A stretch of DNA of 64,000 nucleotides, from contig JAGQSC010000019.1 of assembly GCA_020439745.1 (NCBI GenBank), forward strand, positions 496,001-560,000. The letters are read 5' to 3'. A program made the position numbers and the translations under genes. This document shows, piece by piece, positions 11,797-16,855 of this stretch (its first letter is position 1; every line of letters starts with the position of its first letter). The notes beneath the pieces are model-generated. The model ran no database searches and had not been told where the DNA came from. It was given only the letters and a program-made list of their open reading frames with translations. The DNA is from Acidobacteriota bacterium (lineage in GTDB: Bacteria > Acidobacteriota > Holophagae > Acanthopleuribacterales > Acanthopleuribacteraceae).

Positions 11797-13254
11797 CTAG
11801 AAGTCAAGGCTGTATTGCAAGCTCCAGTTGAGTTGTTCGTGCGTCGATGTGACGGCCGGAATGGTGGTTCCATTGCCGGGGTTAGTTGCCTCGTTTTGCA
11901 ATGAGTAGACCAATGCCAGATGGGCCGCACCCGGGCCGACAGGATAACTCAACCCTGCAGTGATGTGGTCTTCAACAATCGCTGGGAAGAGTGCATTGAG
12001 GTAAGCATCCGGGATGGGATTGTCTGTCAGGTTCACACCACCTCTCACTGAGAGATGACGCATTTGATGTGAAACACCAAGCGCATATACCGCCTGATCG
12101 TCCCAGTTCTGGAACAAAGTGGCCTCCATGTTCAGGCCTGCAAAATTCCCATTATGTGAGGCTTGTCCGACGTCAAACGACATCACAAAGTCATCCATCA
12201 CATCGGACCACTGGTAAAACTTGAAGTCACCTACCAGCATGGTTTGGTCCGAGATCGCATATGACATGCCCAGTCCAAAGGTCCAGGGCCATTGAAAGTC
12301 GCGCACCGCTACCTTGCCCGTCAGTGGCACGGTCACATCCGCATAGGTACCACTCGGCATTTGCCCCTGAGCCAAACCTGTGTCCATGCGAACTGACATC
12401 GTCATGGAAGCATGTCTTGCCTCCAAATCCTGTAAGTAGGTCTTGGAGTGGATTGTGCCGCCAATCGAGAATCGGTCACTGGCACGATATAGGAACCCAA
12501 ATTTTCCAGCTATCCCATAACCACGGGAAGCACCGGTAAAATCGCTATCGTTACTGAAATCGAAGTAGGCGTAATTCATCGACTGAATGCCCTGACCACC
12601 AAATGGTTCGAACATAGAACCCAGAGCCTGGATCATGGTGCCACTCACGGCACCTATGTTCTGCGCCATCGGGTTGGCCATATCCACGAACTGGGCCTGA
12701 TTCAGCGCCATCTGCAAATCCAGACCTGCCCACACGAGGTCAAAACTTCCGGCAATACTCATGCGTTCGTTAAGCCGATAGGCAATAGGCGCAATCACTC
12801 GGCCTACACTTACTTCCGAACGCTGTGTTAATCCGTAATCCATGCCCAACCATGAATCGGCGGGATACTCGCAGCCCATACCTCCCTGCGCGTACATGCC
12901 TACCCCGTAGACCAAGTTCCCCCGTCGCTTCGCCCAAGCCAGGGAAGGCATATAAAACGCATCCGACATGGACGTGGCTATCAGCTCACCTTGGGGCGTA
13001 TAGACGGATGTCTCCACATCGGGTCCTAATCTTCGGATGGCAAACTCAAATTGGGCCTTGCCGTCTTTCATGTAGACCAAAGTAGCGGGGTTATTCATCA
13101 CGGCTGCCAGTCCATTGTCAAAAGCCATTGAAGCGCCGCCAAGACTTGTCGAAACTGGACCCCAGCCCTCCAGGTTCATACCGTCCGTGCCAAACACGCA
13201 CAAAGGTAACGCCATGATCCCCAACCATCGAATTACTTGATATTTTCGCAACAT
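11797..13254 (-). CDS. FadL/OmpP1/TodX-type outer-membrane channel
   Basis: This 485-residue beta-barrel precursor has a signal peptide (residues 1 to about 22) and a mature N-terminus TDGMNLEGWGPVSTSLGGASMA followed by VMNNPATL, the FadL hatch region with its NPA motif. The C-terminus ends in aromatic LQYSLDF, as required for BAM insertion. FadL-family channels pass hydrophobic molecules across the outer membrane. It is the last gene of an operon with DsrE2-, TusE- and SQR-like proteins, 34 bases after the DsrE2 stop, with AAAGGAGG before its ATG. A role in moving hydrophobic sulfur or a thiol-containing substrate is inference only. Confidence 0.85.
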   Translation of the reverse strand: MLRKYQVIRWLGIMALPLCVFGTDGMNLEGWGPVSTSLGGASMAFDNGLAAVMNNPATLVYMKDGKAQFEFAIRRLGPDVETSVYTPQGELIATSMSDAFYMPSLAWAKRRGNLVYGVGMYAQGGMGCEYPADSWLGMDYGLTQRSEVSVGRVIAPIAYRLNERMSIAGSFDLVWAGLDLQMALNQAQFVDMANPMAQNIGAVSGTMIQALGSMFEPFGGQGIQSMNYAYFDFSNDSDFTGASRGYGIAGKFGFLYRASDRFSIGGTIHSKTYLQDLEARHASMTMSVRMDTGLAQGQMPSGTYADVTVPLTGKVAVRDFQWPWTFGLGMSYAISDQTMLVGDFKFYQWSDVMDDFVMSFDVGQASHNGNFAGLNMEATLFQNWDDQAVYALGVSHQMRHLSVRGGVNLTDNPIPDAYLNALFPAIVEDHITAGLSYPVGPGAAHLALVYSLQNEATNPGNGTTIPAVTSTHEQLNWSLQYSLDF

Positions 13255-13288
13255 CGCACCCTCCTTTCGGGCTTCCCAAAATCACCCA

Positions 13289-13795
13289 TCAGATGAAGAT
13301 GATTTGTGCATCGGCGGCGAGATCCATGAAATCCATAGCGGTAATGATTTCCTTCACTTGCGGGACCAAGTCGTCCTTTTCCAGCTTGAACATGTCCATG
13401 GCCATCTGGCAGCCATACATTTCCGCCCCCGCATCATCTAGGATCTCCAGCATCTCTCGAATGCTTGGGATATCCAGCTTCTCCATTTCCCGTTTCATCA
13501 TGGTTGTTGCGATGCCTTCCATGCCAGGCAAGCCAGCTATCATGGCCGGAACAGGCACCGACGGATTTCCCACAAAGGTTAGGTGCAAATGATCTATTTT
13601 CTTTTTGTTGACAATATCCAGACCCCAGAACGTAAAGAACAGCGTAGCTTCCACCCCGCACATACGCGCAGCGTTTGCCAAGATTAGTCCGGGATAAGCC
13701 ATGTCCAAGCTGCCTTTGGAGCAGATAATCGCGAGTTTTGTCATTGTGTGTTTCTGGGTCTCTTCTTGATTGACTTCTTTTTCAAGTACGTTCAT
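13289..13795 (-). CDS. DsrE2-like sulfurtransferase (DsrE/DsrF/DrsH family)
   Basis: The 168-residue protein has the DsrE2 pattern: KLAIICSKGSLDMAYPGLILA, FFTFWGLDIV and a late YGCQMAMDMF cysteine (C129) on the strand that binds sulfane sulfur in this family. Other cysteines are C25 and C46. Such proteins carry persulfide between sulfur-oxidising or tRNA-thiolating partners. It sits directly downstream of the TusE/DsrC-like gene (9-base gap, GGAGGA ribosome site), so a relay between the two is likely. A purely cytoplasmic form is predicted; no transmembrane segment is evident. Confidence 0.8.
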   Translation of the reverse strand: MNVLEKEVNQEETQKHTMTKLAIICSKGSLDMAYPGLILANAARMCGVEATLFFTFWGLDIVNKKKIDHLHLTFVGNPSVPVPAMIAGLPGMEGIATTMMKREMEKLDIPSIREMLEILDDAGAEMYGCQMAMDMFKLEKDDLVPQVKEIITAMDFMDLAADAQIIFI

Positions 13796-13804
13796 CGTTT
13801 CCTC

Positions 13805-14113
13805 CTACAGGCATGACTTGGGTTTGGGAACCCCGGCAATCTTGGCAATCAATTTTCCGGGCCCTTTGGGAAACAACAGGTAAATTTGCTTTATCGCGAC
13901 ACCCGTCTGTTGGGCGATGCGCCGGAGTCCCGGAGATTGTCCCTTACTGGCGAAATCTTCACGGGCGAAGTTGATCAGGCGCCAATGGTCTGGGGTCAAT
14001 TGGATGTTCAAGTCATCGGCAATGGCCTCGCCAAGATCCATGGTCCATTCAGTGGGGTTCAATAGGTAGCCATCCTTGTCCATGGCCACATGGGTATAGG
14101 TAGCGGTCGTCAT
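13805..14113 (-). CDS. TusE/DsrC-family sulfur-relay protein with a single C-terminal cysteine
   Basis: The 102-residue protein carries the family core: DKDGYLLNPTEWTMDLGEAIA, LTPDHWRLINFARE and the C-terminal KPKSCL. The penultimate cysteine (CysA) is present. The second cysteine of true DsrC, about ten residues earlier, is absent, so it groups with TusE-type carriers rather than with DsrC of dissimilatory sulfite reductase. AAGGAGG lies 5 bases before the ATG at 14113; an adjacent ATG at 14116 is possible. It begins 10 bases after the SQR-like stop. It probably accepts persulfide from, or passes it to, the DsrE2-like protein. Confidence 0.85.
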   Translation of the reverse strand: MTTATYTHVAMDKDGYLLNPTEWTMDLGEAIADDLNIQLTPDHWRLINFAREDFASKGQSPGLRRIAQQTGVAIKQIYLLFPKGPGKLIAKIAGVPKPKSCL

Positions 14114-14123
14114 CATGTCCTCC

Positions 14124-15350
14124 TTAAGATGCAATCTGCTTCTTTCCGCTGAGATTCATTTGTGGAGAGATGGGGAGTGGCCTACCCGGCAGTAATGCGT
14201 GCCAGTAGATGGGTCTGAACGCCAGTTTTCCCCAATGGTTGATCCGGCTTTCTGCCATTAAAGAGAAGGGACCCAAATGCGGCACGGGAAAATACCCGGG
14301 CAGGGGTTCCACATCGTAGTTGAAGTCGATCAACATGGCTTTTCCGCCACCTGTCTCCACGAAACAGTTGGCATGGCCATCGAACGCGGCTTTCATGGGT
14401 TTATCGGCCACGTAGTCCTGTATGTTCTGTTTGAGTATCTCTGCTTGGAAGTGCGCCACAGAACCGGCTTTAGATGACGGAAGGTCCGTGGCATCGCCCA
14501 ACACAAACACATCCTCCATCTGCAGCGCGCGTAATGTATGTTTGTCAGTGGGTACAAAATCCAACTCGTCGCCCAGTTCTGATGTCCCAATGAATGCCGC
14601 GCCCGAATGAATGGGTACCGACACCAAGAGATCAAATCCAACGTGGCGTTCGTCATAGGAAACCAACCGTCTATCCGTAACTTCCGCGGTCATAAACTCG
14701 GTTTCCAAACGGATATTTTTTTCTTCCAACAAGTAGCCCAACGTTTTGGCAGCATAAGGTTTTGTGAACGCCGCATCCAGTGGTGTGGCGTAGACGAGTT
14801 CCACGTCATCTCGCATACCGCGTCGTTTAAAATAATCATCCGCCAAAAAAAGGAACTCCAATGGAGCAACTGGACACTTGATAGGCATTTCCACGACGTT
14901 TACGACGAGTCGCCCACCCTTGAAATTCGCCAGGGCAGAACGCAGAGCTTGGGCCCCTCTTACCGTGTAGAAATCGTGTACACCTGCAATCGGTCCATCC
15001 TCAAGGCCGGGTGTCATATCTGGGCGGATGCGGGTACCGCTCGCCAGAATCGCCAAGTCGTACTCCAAGACGGAATCATCATCAAGAACCACGCTTTTTT
15101 TTGCGTGATCCATTTGGCGAATCGCCAGAGGTTTCCACTGCACGCCACGTTTGAATGTGTGATTCCTCGGTCTCGTTAGCTTGCGATCGTCCAGCATTCC
15201 AAAAGGCAAAAAAAGGAGCCCTGGCTGGTACACATGATGGCGATCCGGTTCCACCACTGTGACCTGCCATTCGGTTCCTAATCGATCGACGAGGGAATTG
15301 GCCATCATGGTGCCAGCAGTTCCACCACCGAGAATAAGCAGCTTTTTCAT
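14124..15350 (-). CDS. Sulfide:quinone oxidoreductase-like FAD flavoprotein
   Basis: The 408-residue flavoprotein opens with KKLLILGGGTAGTMMA (FAD-binding GxGxxG type) and has the late FVLGDATD FAD motif (282-290). The conserved PIKCPVAP segment of the SQR/flavocytochrome c family gives C159; a second cysteine, C329, could complete the redox pair. No transmembrane helix is needed in this family; the amphipathic C-terminus usually docks to the membrane. It would oxidise sulfide or persulfide and reduce quinone. AGGAGGT lies 5 bases before the ATG. It is the first gene behind the sigma-54 promoter. Confidence 0.78.
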   Translation of the reverse strand: MKKLLILGGGTAGTMMANSLVDRLGTEWQVTVVEPDRHHVYQPGLLFLPFGMLDDRKLTRPRNHTFKRGVQWKPLAIRQMDHAKKSVVLDDDSVLEYDLAILASGTRIRPDMTPGLEDGPIAGVHDFYTVRGAQALRSALANFKGGRLVVNVVEMPIKCPVAPLEFLFLADDYFKRRGMRDDVELVYATPLDAAFTKPYAAKTLGYLLEEKNIRLETEFMTAEVTDRRLVSYDERHVGFDLLVSVPIHSGAAFIGTSELGDELDFVPTDKHTLRALQMEDVFVLGDATDLPSSKAGSVAHFQAEILKQNIQDYVADKPMKAAFDGHANCFVETGGGKAMLIDFNYDVEPLPGYFPVPHLGPFSLMAESRINHWGKLAFRPIYWHALLPGRPLPISPQMNLSGKKQIAS

Positions 15351-15373
15351 GACATACCTCCTGCCGCATAAGG

Positions 15374-15388
15374 GCAACAGGTATGCCA
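15374..15388 (-). promoter_or_regulatory. Sigma-54 (-24/-12) promoter of the sulfur operon
   Basis: The minus strand reads TGGCATACCTGTTGC. The invariant GG and GC are separated by exactly 10 bases, and the flanks match the TGGCAC-N5-TTGC consensus at most positions. Transcription would start near 15362, leaving a very short leader that begins about at the SQR-like Shine-Dalgarno site. Confidence 0.8.
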
Positions 15389-15446: not shown

Positions 15447-15524
15447 TGTAACAATTTGTTTCATTAGACTGACTTGTTACACTTTGTTTCAGGCACTGGT
15501 CGCTACATGAAACAAACTGTTTAA
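15447..15524. promoter_or_regulatory. Three upstream activator sites (TGWWACA-N3-TGTTTMA)
   Basis: Three 17-bp sites share spacing and sequence: 15447-15463 (TGTAACA/TGTTTCA), 15475-15491 (TGTTACA/TGTTTCA) and 15508-15524 (TGAAACA/TGTTTAA). Sites 1 and 3 are near-perfect inverted repeats. They lie roughly 60 to 140 bases upstream of the sigma-54 promoter, the usual enhancer distance. Site 3 overlaps the stop codon of the adjacent activator gene. They are the probable binding sites of that activator. Confidence 0.7.
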
Positions 15525-16855
15525 ACGAGTCCTTCGGCCTTCATGCGACGCCACAACGTCGTGCGACTGATCCCTAAATGTTCGGCAGCCTTTGATTTGT
15601 TCCATCGGCACTGTGTGAGTGCCTGCACCAATTGTGACCGTGGCGTTTTTTGAGACTCTATTGGGACAGGCTCCGGAAATAGTCGTGTTTCATGCCCAAT
15701 CTTCGAGACCTCGGCATGATCTCGAATGTCTTGGGGCAATTCATCCACCTGAATAAACTGTCCTTGGCTGATTGTGGCGGCGTACTCGAGTGCGTTTTCC
15801 AGCTCTCGGACGTTGCCAGGCCAGGGGTACGACAACAGGGCCCTCATGGTCAAGGAAGGTAGAAACTGTTGTCGCCCTGTGCGTTCGGCAATACGCGTCA
15901 TGAGAAACCTCGCCAAGGCTTCAATATCTTCTTTTCTTTGGCGCAAGGGCGGTATGTGGATAGGAATCACGCGAAGCCGGTAGTACAGATCATCGCGAAA
16001 CTCATTCCTCTGGATCATTCGCTCCAGATCCCGATTGGTGGCGGCAATGATTCGTGCTTCAAGCTTGAGGGCTCTCGGGTCGCCCAGTTTCTCGTATTGC
16101 CGTTCCTGCAAAACACGCAACAGTTTCACTTGCAGCGGCAGGGGTACGTCGCCGATCTCGTCAAGAAACAGCGTACCTCCACGAGCTAGTTCTAGTCGTC
16201 CTGGCTTGTCGCGATGAGCTCCTGTATAGGCACCACGAACGTGACCAAACAATTCGTTCTCCAGCAATGTGTCAGGAAAAGCGGAACAGTTAACCGCGAC
16301 GAAAGGCCCTTCTCTCTGTGGTGACCTTTTATGGATGGCACGTGCAATGACTTCCTTGCCCGTGCCACTCTCACCGGTTATCAATACTGTGGCATCGCTC
16401 TGTTGCAACAGATCAATCATATGATCGATGTGTTGAATCGCTGGCGAGACGGCAATAAAGTCGCGGCCAAATGCGGTCGTGGCCTGATCTTGGGCCGGCT
16501 TGATGGCACAGAAGTAGACGGCGTTCGGATCTTCGAGTTGGATTTCAGAGGGCGCTGCAGCGGAAGAAACGGACACCAGTCTGGTGCCGCGAAGAGGACA
16601 ATTGAGAAATGCCCGGCGACCTTCATCTACTTCACCGGCCCTTAACCGGCGTTTGATCTCCGTGACGGTTTGTTGGCGTTCGCCAAAAATCAAATCGTCC
16701 AATGTTCGGCCTGAAACTCGATTGGCCGCACCATCGCAAATTAGGCCGTCAAAACTGCGACCCGCCTGAATAATACGGAATTGATCGTCCAACAAAATCA
16801 ATGCACGACCCAGTGATTCAAAAAAAAGATCAGCACGATCAAATGCACTATCCAT
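15521..16855 (-). CDS. Sigma-54-dependent activator with PAS sensor, FisR-like
   Basis: The 444-residue protein has a PAS-like N-terminal sensor (about 8-120), an AAA+ core with Walker A GESGTGKE (161-168), the sigma-54-contacting loop GAYTGA (208-213) and Walker B TLFLDE, then a Fis-type helix-turn-helix at the C-terminus (AAEHLGISRTTLWRRM). The sensor has three cysteines, C40, C86 and C116. FisR of Cupriavidus is a sigma-54 activator that senses polysulfide through sensor cysteines and switches on sqr; the same gene pairing here suggests an equivalent role. Phe of the usual GAFTGA is Tyr, a tolerated variant. Confidence 0.85.
   Translation of the reverse strand: MDSAFDRADLFFESLGRALILLDDQFRIIQAGRSFDGLICDGAANRVSGRTLDDLIFGERQQTVTEIKRRLRAGEVDEGRRAFLNCPLRGTRLVSVSSAAAPSEIQLEDPNAVYFCAIKPAQDQATTAFGRDFIAVSPAIQHIDHMIDLLQQSDATVLITGESGTGKEVIARAIHKRSPQREGPFVAVNCSAFPDTLLENELFGHVRGAYTGAHRDKPGRLELARGGTLFLDEIGDVPLPLQVKLLRVLQERQYEKLGDPRALKLEARIIAATNRDLERMIQRNEFRDDLYYRLRVIPIHIPPLRQRKEDIEALARFLMTRIAERTGRQQFLPSLTMRALLSYPWPGNVRELENALEYAATISQGQFIQVDELPQDIRDHAEVSKIGHETRLFPEPVPIESQKTPRSQLVQALTQCRWNKSKAAEHLGISRTTLWRRMKAEGLV

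Follow-up and report, generated by a model that had tools for sequence, protein, structure and literature searches.

A probably sulfur-induced sqr-tusE-dsrE2-fadL operon with a TodX-type outer-membrane channel in Acidobacteriota

Why would an operon for sulfide oxidation and sulfane-sulfur relay include a gene for an outer-membrane hydrophobic channel? The question is raised by a 64,000-nucleotide stretch of an Acidobacteriota genome from the family Acanthopleuribacteraceae (assembly GCA_020439745.1, contig JAGQSC010000019.1, positions 496,001 to 560,000; hereafter the window), in which genes for a sulfide:quinone oxidoreductase (sqr), a TusE/DsrC-type protein (tusE), a DsrE2-type protein (dsrE2), and a FadL-type channel (fadL) follow one another. 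Since sulfide passes freely through membranes, a purely sulfide-directed operon has little use for an outer-membrane channel unless the channel's substrate is hydrophobic. Comparison with other genomes, from which gene identity, operon structure, linkage, regulatory signals, and channel type all follow, shows that the arrangement is genuine and recurs, as a variant of the FisR-type operons for sulfide oxidation. It is probably sulfur-induced. The FadL gene, which a sequence-only reading of the window had picked out as the least expected part, is indeed the less common part, yet it recurs and is not peculiar to this genome.

The operon and its four proteins

All four genes lie on the minus strand in the order sqr (14124..15350), tusE/dsrC (13805 to about 14116), dsrE2 (13289..13795), and fadL (11797..13254). 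Family scans and coordinates confirm the earlier description of SQR-like, TusE-like, DsrE2-like, and FadL-type genes in one operon, at the positions first given for them. The gaps between genes are 7-35 nucleotides (nt), a Shine-Dalgarno-like sequence precedes each start, and the dsrE2-fadL interval, scanned for promoter-like and terminator-like sites, contained none. Membership of the four genes in a single unit is well supported by comparison.

The window SQR (ATG at 15350, stop at 14124) matches NF049943, "type III sulfide quinone reductase, selenoprotein subtype", across profile positions 1-406 of 406 with 567 bits (cut-off 525), and its best solved relative is human SQR (E 7e-44). Cys159 and Cys329 align with the two Cys of the human enzyme; these catalytic residues are kept in 127 and 128 of 129 aligned rows (the cysteine alignments hold about 100 rows or more per protein, near-duplicates among them). 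Profile and alignment place the protein with the type III sulfide:quinone oxidoreductases and give it two redox-active cysteines; sulfide-dependent quinone reduction is its predicted activity. The match to the selenoprotein subtype is full-length and above the cut-off, but the window SQR has a Cys in its HANC motif, which probably corresponds to the selenocysteine position of the HxxU motif listed in PMC13188914.

The TusE/DsrC-type protein scores 84.3 bits against TIGR03342 (cut-off 53.5) and ends in ...KSCL, with a penultimate Cys that is present in 106 of 108 aligned rows. Eleven positions before it stands Ala rather than Cys, in line with the description in PMC3397948 of organisms that lack DsrAB. 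With no second Cys, and no dsrA match in the genome, the protein is not DsrC proper, the co-substrate of DsrAB; nor does it qualify as the TusE of tRNA thiolation, as TusA (PF01206) had no match in the 97% complete genome (the control was positive) and the score against the TusE equivalog is 63 where 191 is needed. Neither the Dsr pathway nor the usual relay for tRNA thiolation can therefore be supplied by this one, and with TusA absent the sulfur for tRNA 2-thiouridine must come by another route. The DsrE2-type protein, predicted to be a soluble sulfur carrier, belongs to PF13686 (E 5e-39) and lies below the NF047629 equivalog cut-off (124.8 vs 210 bits). Its Cys129, in the motif YGCQ, aligns only with Cys (100 rows). 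No export signal is seen in SQR, TusE, or DsrE2, which presumably reside in the cytoplasm or at the cytoplasmic face of the inner membrane.

The 5.1-Mb genome, from a family that includes genomes of 10-12 Mb, encodes a single member each of the tusE/dsrC and dsrE2 families, both in this operon. A Blh-like dioxygenase domain is encoded elsewhere (284 bits, short of the cut-off for the two-domain Blh model). The nearest known relay is DsrEFH-DsrC/TusBCD-TusE, likewise pairing a DsrE-type donor with a TusE/DsrC-type acceptor that has a penultimate Cys (PMC3397948). The window has one DsrE2 where that relay has a complex of three subunits, lacks the second DsrC Cys, and couples the gene to SQR, in a genome with neither dsrA nor TusA. 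A connection of DsrE2 with sulfur disproportionation was weighed and dropped; PMC12998232 rejects DsrE2 as a marker of that process, and dsrA is absent here.

The last gene encodes one of seven PF03349 matches in the genome (69.3 bits, cut-off 29.7, E 3e-19). Its N-terminal NPA motif (N55 P56 A57) is invariant among aligned sequences, and the two features together place the window channel, by sequence, with the FadL/TodX outer-membrane transporters. The nearest solved relatives are TbuX (E 1e-49), TodX, and CymD. A Foldseek search with the AlphaFold model, which is of low-to-moderate confidence (mean pLDDT 57.5), likewise retrieved TbuX (E 1.6e-27) and TodX (5e-27), then E. coli FadL, with TM-scores of 0.54-0.66 for the three; a 14-strand barrel with hatch, as in this transporter family, is a possible fold. 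Identity is 56-57% to the family-level orthologue and about 26-33% to hydrocarbon channels. Methionine makes up 6.1% of the window protein and 6.9% of that orthologue (L195:479-1963), against a background mean of 1.6%; the two share 21 methionines, and some of this excess falls in stretches inserted relative to TodX (residues 183-226 and 277-313). This richness may reflect ligand chemistry, and one unlinked FadL also reaches 5.9%.

Linkage and origin of the channel gene

Is the channel gene a regular companion of the sulfur genes? The core alone, compared here in 80 related loci from GTDB genomes, is found in the order sqr-tusE-dsrE2 in Acidobacteriota, Myxococcota, Calditrichota, KSB1, Bacteroidota, Actinomycetota, Bacillota, and Chloroflexota. 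Its distribution in Acidobacteriota is patchy, with SQR in 24 of 396 genomes and in two of the seven from the window's own family. Of 93 loci (window excluded), 7 carry a FadL gene no more than 4 kb from the core, where 0.42 would be expected from a background of 255 FadL matches in 359 Mb, or about 3.5 FadL per genome; the profile used recovers all 36 Pfam-validated FadL loci. This 16-fold excess has a Poisson probability of 3e-7, or 8e-5 when counted as five lineages. The pairing occurs in at least 17 genomes from three phyla. In another member of the window's family, the FadL orthologue (57% identity) stands right after a dsrE2 fragment at a contig start (L195). This related genome (L195 and L008; G398/G402) holds two distinct dsrE2 fragments, each at a contig end, and so may have two operon copies, one with fadL.

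After these figures were computed, 149 genomes from the class of G413, another Acidobacteriota class, were scanned. SQR was found in 22, and in eight new genomes FadL directly follows dsrE2 with gaps of 15-92 nt; these eight are from one class and partly dependent on earlier hits there. Three loci of this class with a complete downstream region (L294, L297, and L298) have no FadL. Linked fadL genes are always on the same strand as the core and at most 160 nt from the adjacent core gene. The channel gene comes last, after dsrE2, in most loci and first in two, lying between the activator and sqr in L148 and between an ArsR gene and sqr in L029. Lack of a conserved neighbourhood had been named beforehand as one of two findings that would refute the idea, and it did not come true: conservation is strong, as seen in the 7 loci against 0.42, the family relative, and the eight later genomes.

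The channel might nonetheless be a passenger, an unspecific FadL that joined by chance or one that serves general lipid uptake or envelope repair under sulfide stress. Such genes are common, as the background density attests, and most core loci do without one. However, the excess was upheld in the later sample, FadL is retained in 11 genomes of one class, and the tree described below points to several recruitments, always of the TodX type and into two different operon positions. We regard a passenger role as very unlikely; that the gene is selectively kept with the core, and not by chance, is well supported by these comparisons.

The tree, built by a quick method, comprises 97 FadLs, nine of them operon-linked, and includes lower-scoring FadLs and named hydrocarbon channels. 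All nine linked proteins fall on the TodX/StyE/XylN side, mixed with unlinked ones, and the linked label requires six changes, at least four of them on well-supported branches. The linked channels were thus probably recruited several times. With 99% support, the hydrocarbon channels form the sister group of the window FadL plus its orthologue. A single-clade origin, suggested by an earlier 72-row tree (with one unlinked row inside the clade), was abandoned on the 97-FadL tree; the single clade had arisen because background sampling was biased to high Pfam scores. Used alone as a query of the phylum, the window FadL retrieved almost nothing, its sole other match being the FadL of G343, beside which no sulfur genes were recognised. 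Because the family diverges too fast for such queries, profiles were used for searches. The neighbours of unlinked TodX-side FadLs were checked for the SQR, TusE, and DsrE2 families, and none were found. Among these, L259 turned out to be the second half of the operon FadL of G409.

Other genes recur beside the linked channels. A small di-heme c-type cytochrome (CxxCHDKPGSKLLTDKGKYxELM ... CTxCHVRKPGS) stands right after fadL in most of the eight new genomes, and the persulfide dioxygenase Blh is encoded close by in five loci of the set. Di-heme loci include L291:8859-9428, L295:3808-4197, L299:1878-2270, L301, L303, L290, L293, L300, L020:5801-6307, and L259:933-1400; the L020 copy has no Pfam family match. 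Neither the di-heme cytochrome nor Blh is found within the 64 kb of the window.

Activator and promoter

What controls the four genes? Directly upstream on the minus strand, at 15521-16855, is a gene for a sigma-54-dependent activator with a PAS-like N-terminus, an AAA+ domain (PF00158, E 5e-68), and a Fis-type helix-turn-helix (HTH_8), which likely switches on the operon. In at least a dozen loci, its orthologues likewise immediately precede sqr. The predicted sigma-54 promoter, TGGCATACCTGTTGCC (15373..15388, minus strand), has the -24/-12 form TGGCAT-N5-TTGC at 15388-15373, about 25-35 nt before the sqr ATG, with correct spacing and 9 of 11 consensus positions. Such a match is not significant by itself (the window holds 12 of them), but most orthologous loci with the activator keep a site of 9-10/11 in this position, L021 (best 8/11) and L291 (none at 9) being exceptions. 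Half sites resembling activator-binding sequences (TGTTTCA, TGWAACA, and TGTTACA) cluster at 15447..15524, five in 190 bp against 0.09 expected from window density, and are enriched in most orthologous intergenic regions. Some loci carry other regulators. Where the sigma-54 activator is missing, as in L039 (10907-11398) and similar loci of Calditrichota, a cysteine-rich MerR regulator follows dsrE2, and in L029 the ArsR regulator takes its place.

Expression of fadL apart from the sigma-54 promoter was the other finding named as refuting the idea; judged from sequence, the signs run against it. The activator-like region of L148, with two half sites and a weak sigma-54-like site (8/11), is followed first by fadL, and in the window no promoter or terminator was seen inside the operon ahead of fadL. 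The hairpin terminator proposed after fadL held up in part. A GC-rich hairpin with a 14-bp stem is present (11774-11744, minus strand, z -2.66) and may mark the transcript 3' end; as an intrinsic terminator it was dropped, having no U-run and not being called in the terminator scan.

The closest regulated counterparts are the sqr-pdo operons of Cupriavidus pinatubonensis and Acinetobacter baumannii, which are controlled by the known sigma-54 activator FisR and are sulfide-inducible (PMC7315123). They share with the window a sigma-54 activator beside sqr and a sigma-54 promoter, and the window activator resembles FisR in domain order, placement, and promoter fit. Unlike the window, they carry pdo (with tauE in A. 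baumannii) and an SQR of another subtype; the window carries tusE, dsrE2, and fadL, with its dioxygenase elsewhere, and an activator without cysteines that its own orthologues conserve.

Substrate and direction of the channel

What, then, would the channel carry, and which way? By analogy, it is reasonable to infer that it carries a hydrophobic sulfur compound. We propose, with confidence evenly balanced, a sigma-54-controlled operon for sulfide and zero-valent sulfur oxidation to which a TodX-type channel was added as a working part. More tentatively, and with more doubt than belief, we suggest that the linked TodX-type FadLs serve specifically to pass zero-valent sulfur (S8 or organic polysulfanes) through the outer membrane, having been recruited repeatedly from hydrocarbon-type channels into oxidation operons induced by sulfane sulfur.

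In TodX-type systems, toluene enters through the outer-membrane channel with no inner-membrane carrier. For the window, the most economical reading supplies the inducer, substrate, direction, and protein-to-protein transfer steps as follows. The PAS-AAA+ activator would sense sulfane sulfur like FisR and turn on all four genes. Through the channel, a small sulfur compound of hydrophobic nature, in the simplest case S8 or an organic polysulfane, would get past the barrier of lipopolysaccharide; the compound would cross the inner membrane unaided, as toluene does, so that no inner-membrane transporter would be needed. Cytoplasmic thiols could then open it to persulfide and H2S, SQR would oxidise the H2S and pass its electrons into quinone, DsrE2 and TusE would carry sulfane sulfur on single cysteines, and a persulfide dioxygenase encoded elsewhere would oxidise it to sulfite.

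Several points weigh against this proposal. Most sqr-tusE-dsrE2 loci have no FadL, so the relay works without it. The linked FadLs form no clade exclusive of unlinked ones, and a close homologue, L213, is unlinked. The operon is intact, but the window activator lacks two N-terminal Cys (aligned positions 21 and 108) that are kept in most or nearly all orthologues; sulfur is thus no more than a possible signal for it. Characterised close relatives of the channel carry aromatic hydrocarbons (toluene, styrene, and xylene), and carriage of sulfur by the linked channels, like its inward direction, is a prediction.

Alternatively, the flow could be outward: SQR and thiol chemistry would make hydrophobic S8 that gathers in the envelope, a passive FadL would let it out, and the operon would serve sulfide detoxification. 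FadL-type channels are passive, the arrangement resembles the FisR-controlled detoxification operons (PMC7315123), and SQR, TusE, and DsrE2 lack export signals, all known chemistry here beginning from sulfide. However, the characterised FadL/TodX channels are uptake channels, S8 made inside can exit by partitioning, and most core loci manage without FadL; we consider relief of this kind unlikely.

The affiliation of the channel raises another origin for the sulfur. TodX, TbuX, StyE, and XylN are its closest solved relatives or sister group, and like it they are outer-membrane proteins encoded inside catabolic gene clusters. Their partner genes are oxygenases, whereas those of the window FadL are sulfur enzymes, and the window FadL differs further in its methionine richness (6-7% vs the 1.6% mean). 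The channel might import a hydrophobic organic compound (a thiol, disulfide, thiophene-like, or aromatic molecule), with SQR removing the sulfide released on breakdown. The grouping with StyE, XylN, and TbuX-like aromatic channels, whose genes adjoin aromatic oxygenases, favors such uptake, but no recurring oxygenase or C-S lyase gene was seen in the linked loci, where the recurring extras are the activator, DUF1641, the di-heme cytochrome, and Blh. We judge this distinctly improbable.

The operon FadL, repeatedly retained with these sulfur genes, is a concrete candidate for the outer-membrane step in the transport of zero-valent sulfur, with solved structural relatives. According to a 2023 study, experiments have yet to confirm any membrane protein for S0 transport in sulfur oxidisers, whether acidophilic or neutrophilic (PMC10045233). 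Our literature searches, whose coverage left out most subscription journals, returned no paper joining FadL with this pathway.

Finally, the sqr-tusE-dsrE2 module is itself widespread and little discussed, and the genome that holds it here has no dsrA. DUF1641 is a further partner (L030:9232-10200 and L039:9236-9922): its gene lies between sqr and tusE in several phyla, and in Myxococcota it forms one protein with the TusE/DsrC domain, to which it is N-terminal. Such a fusion suggests that DUF1641 takes a direct physical part in the relay.

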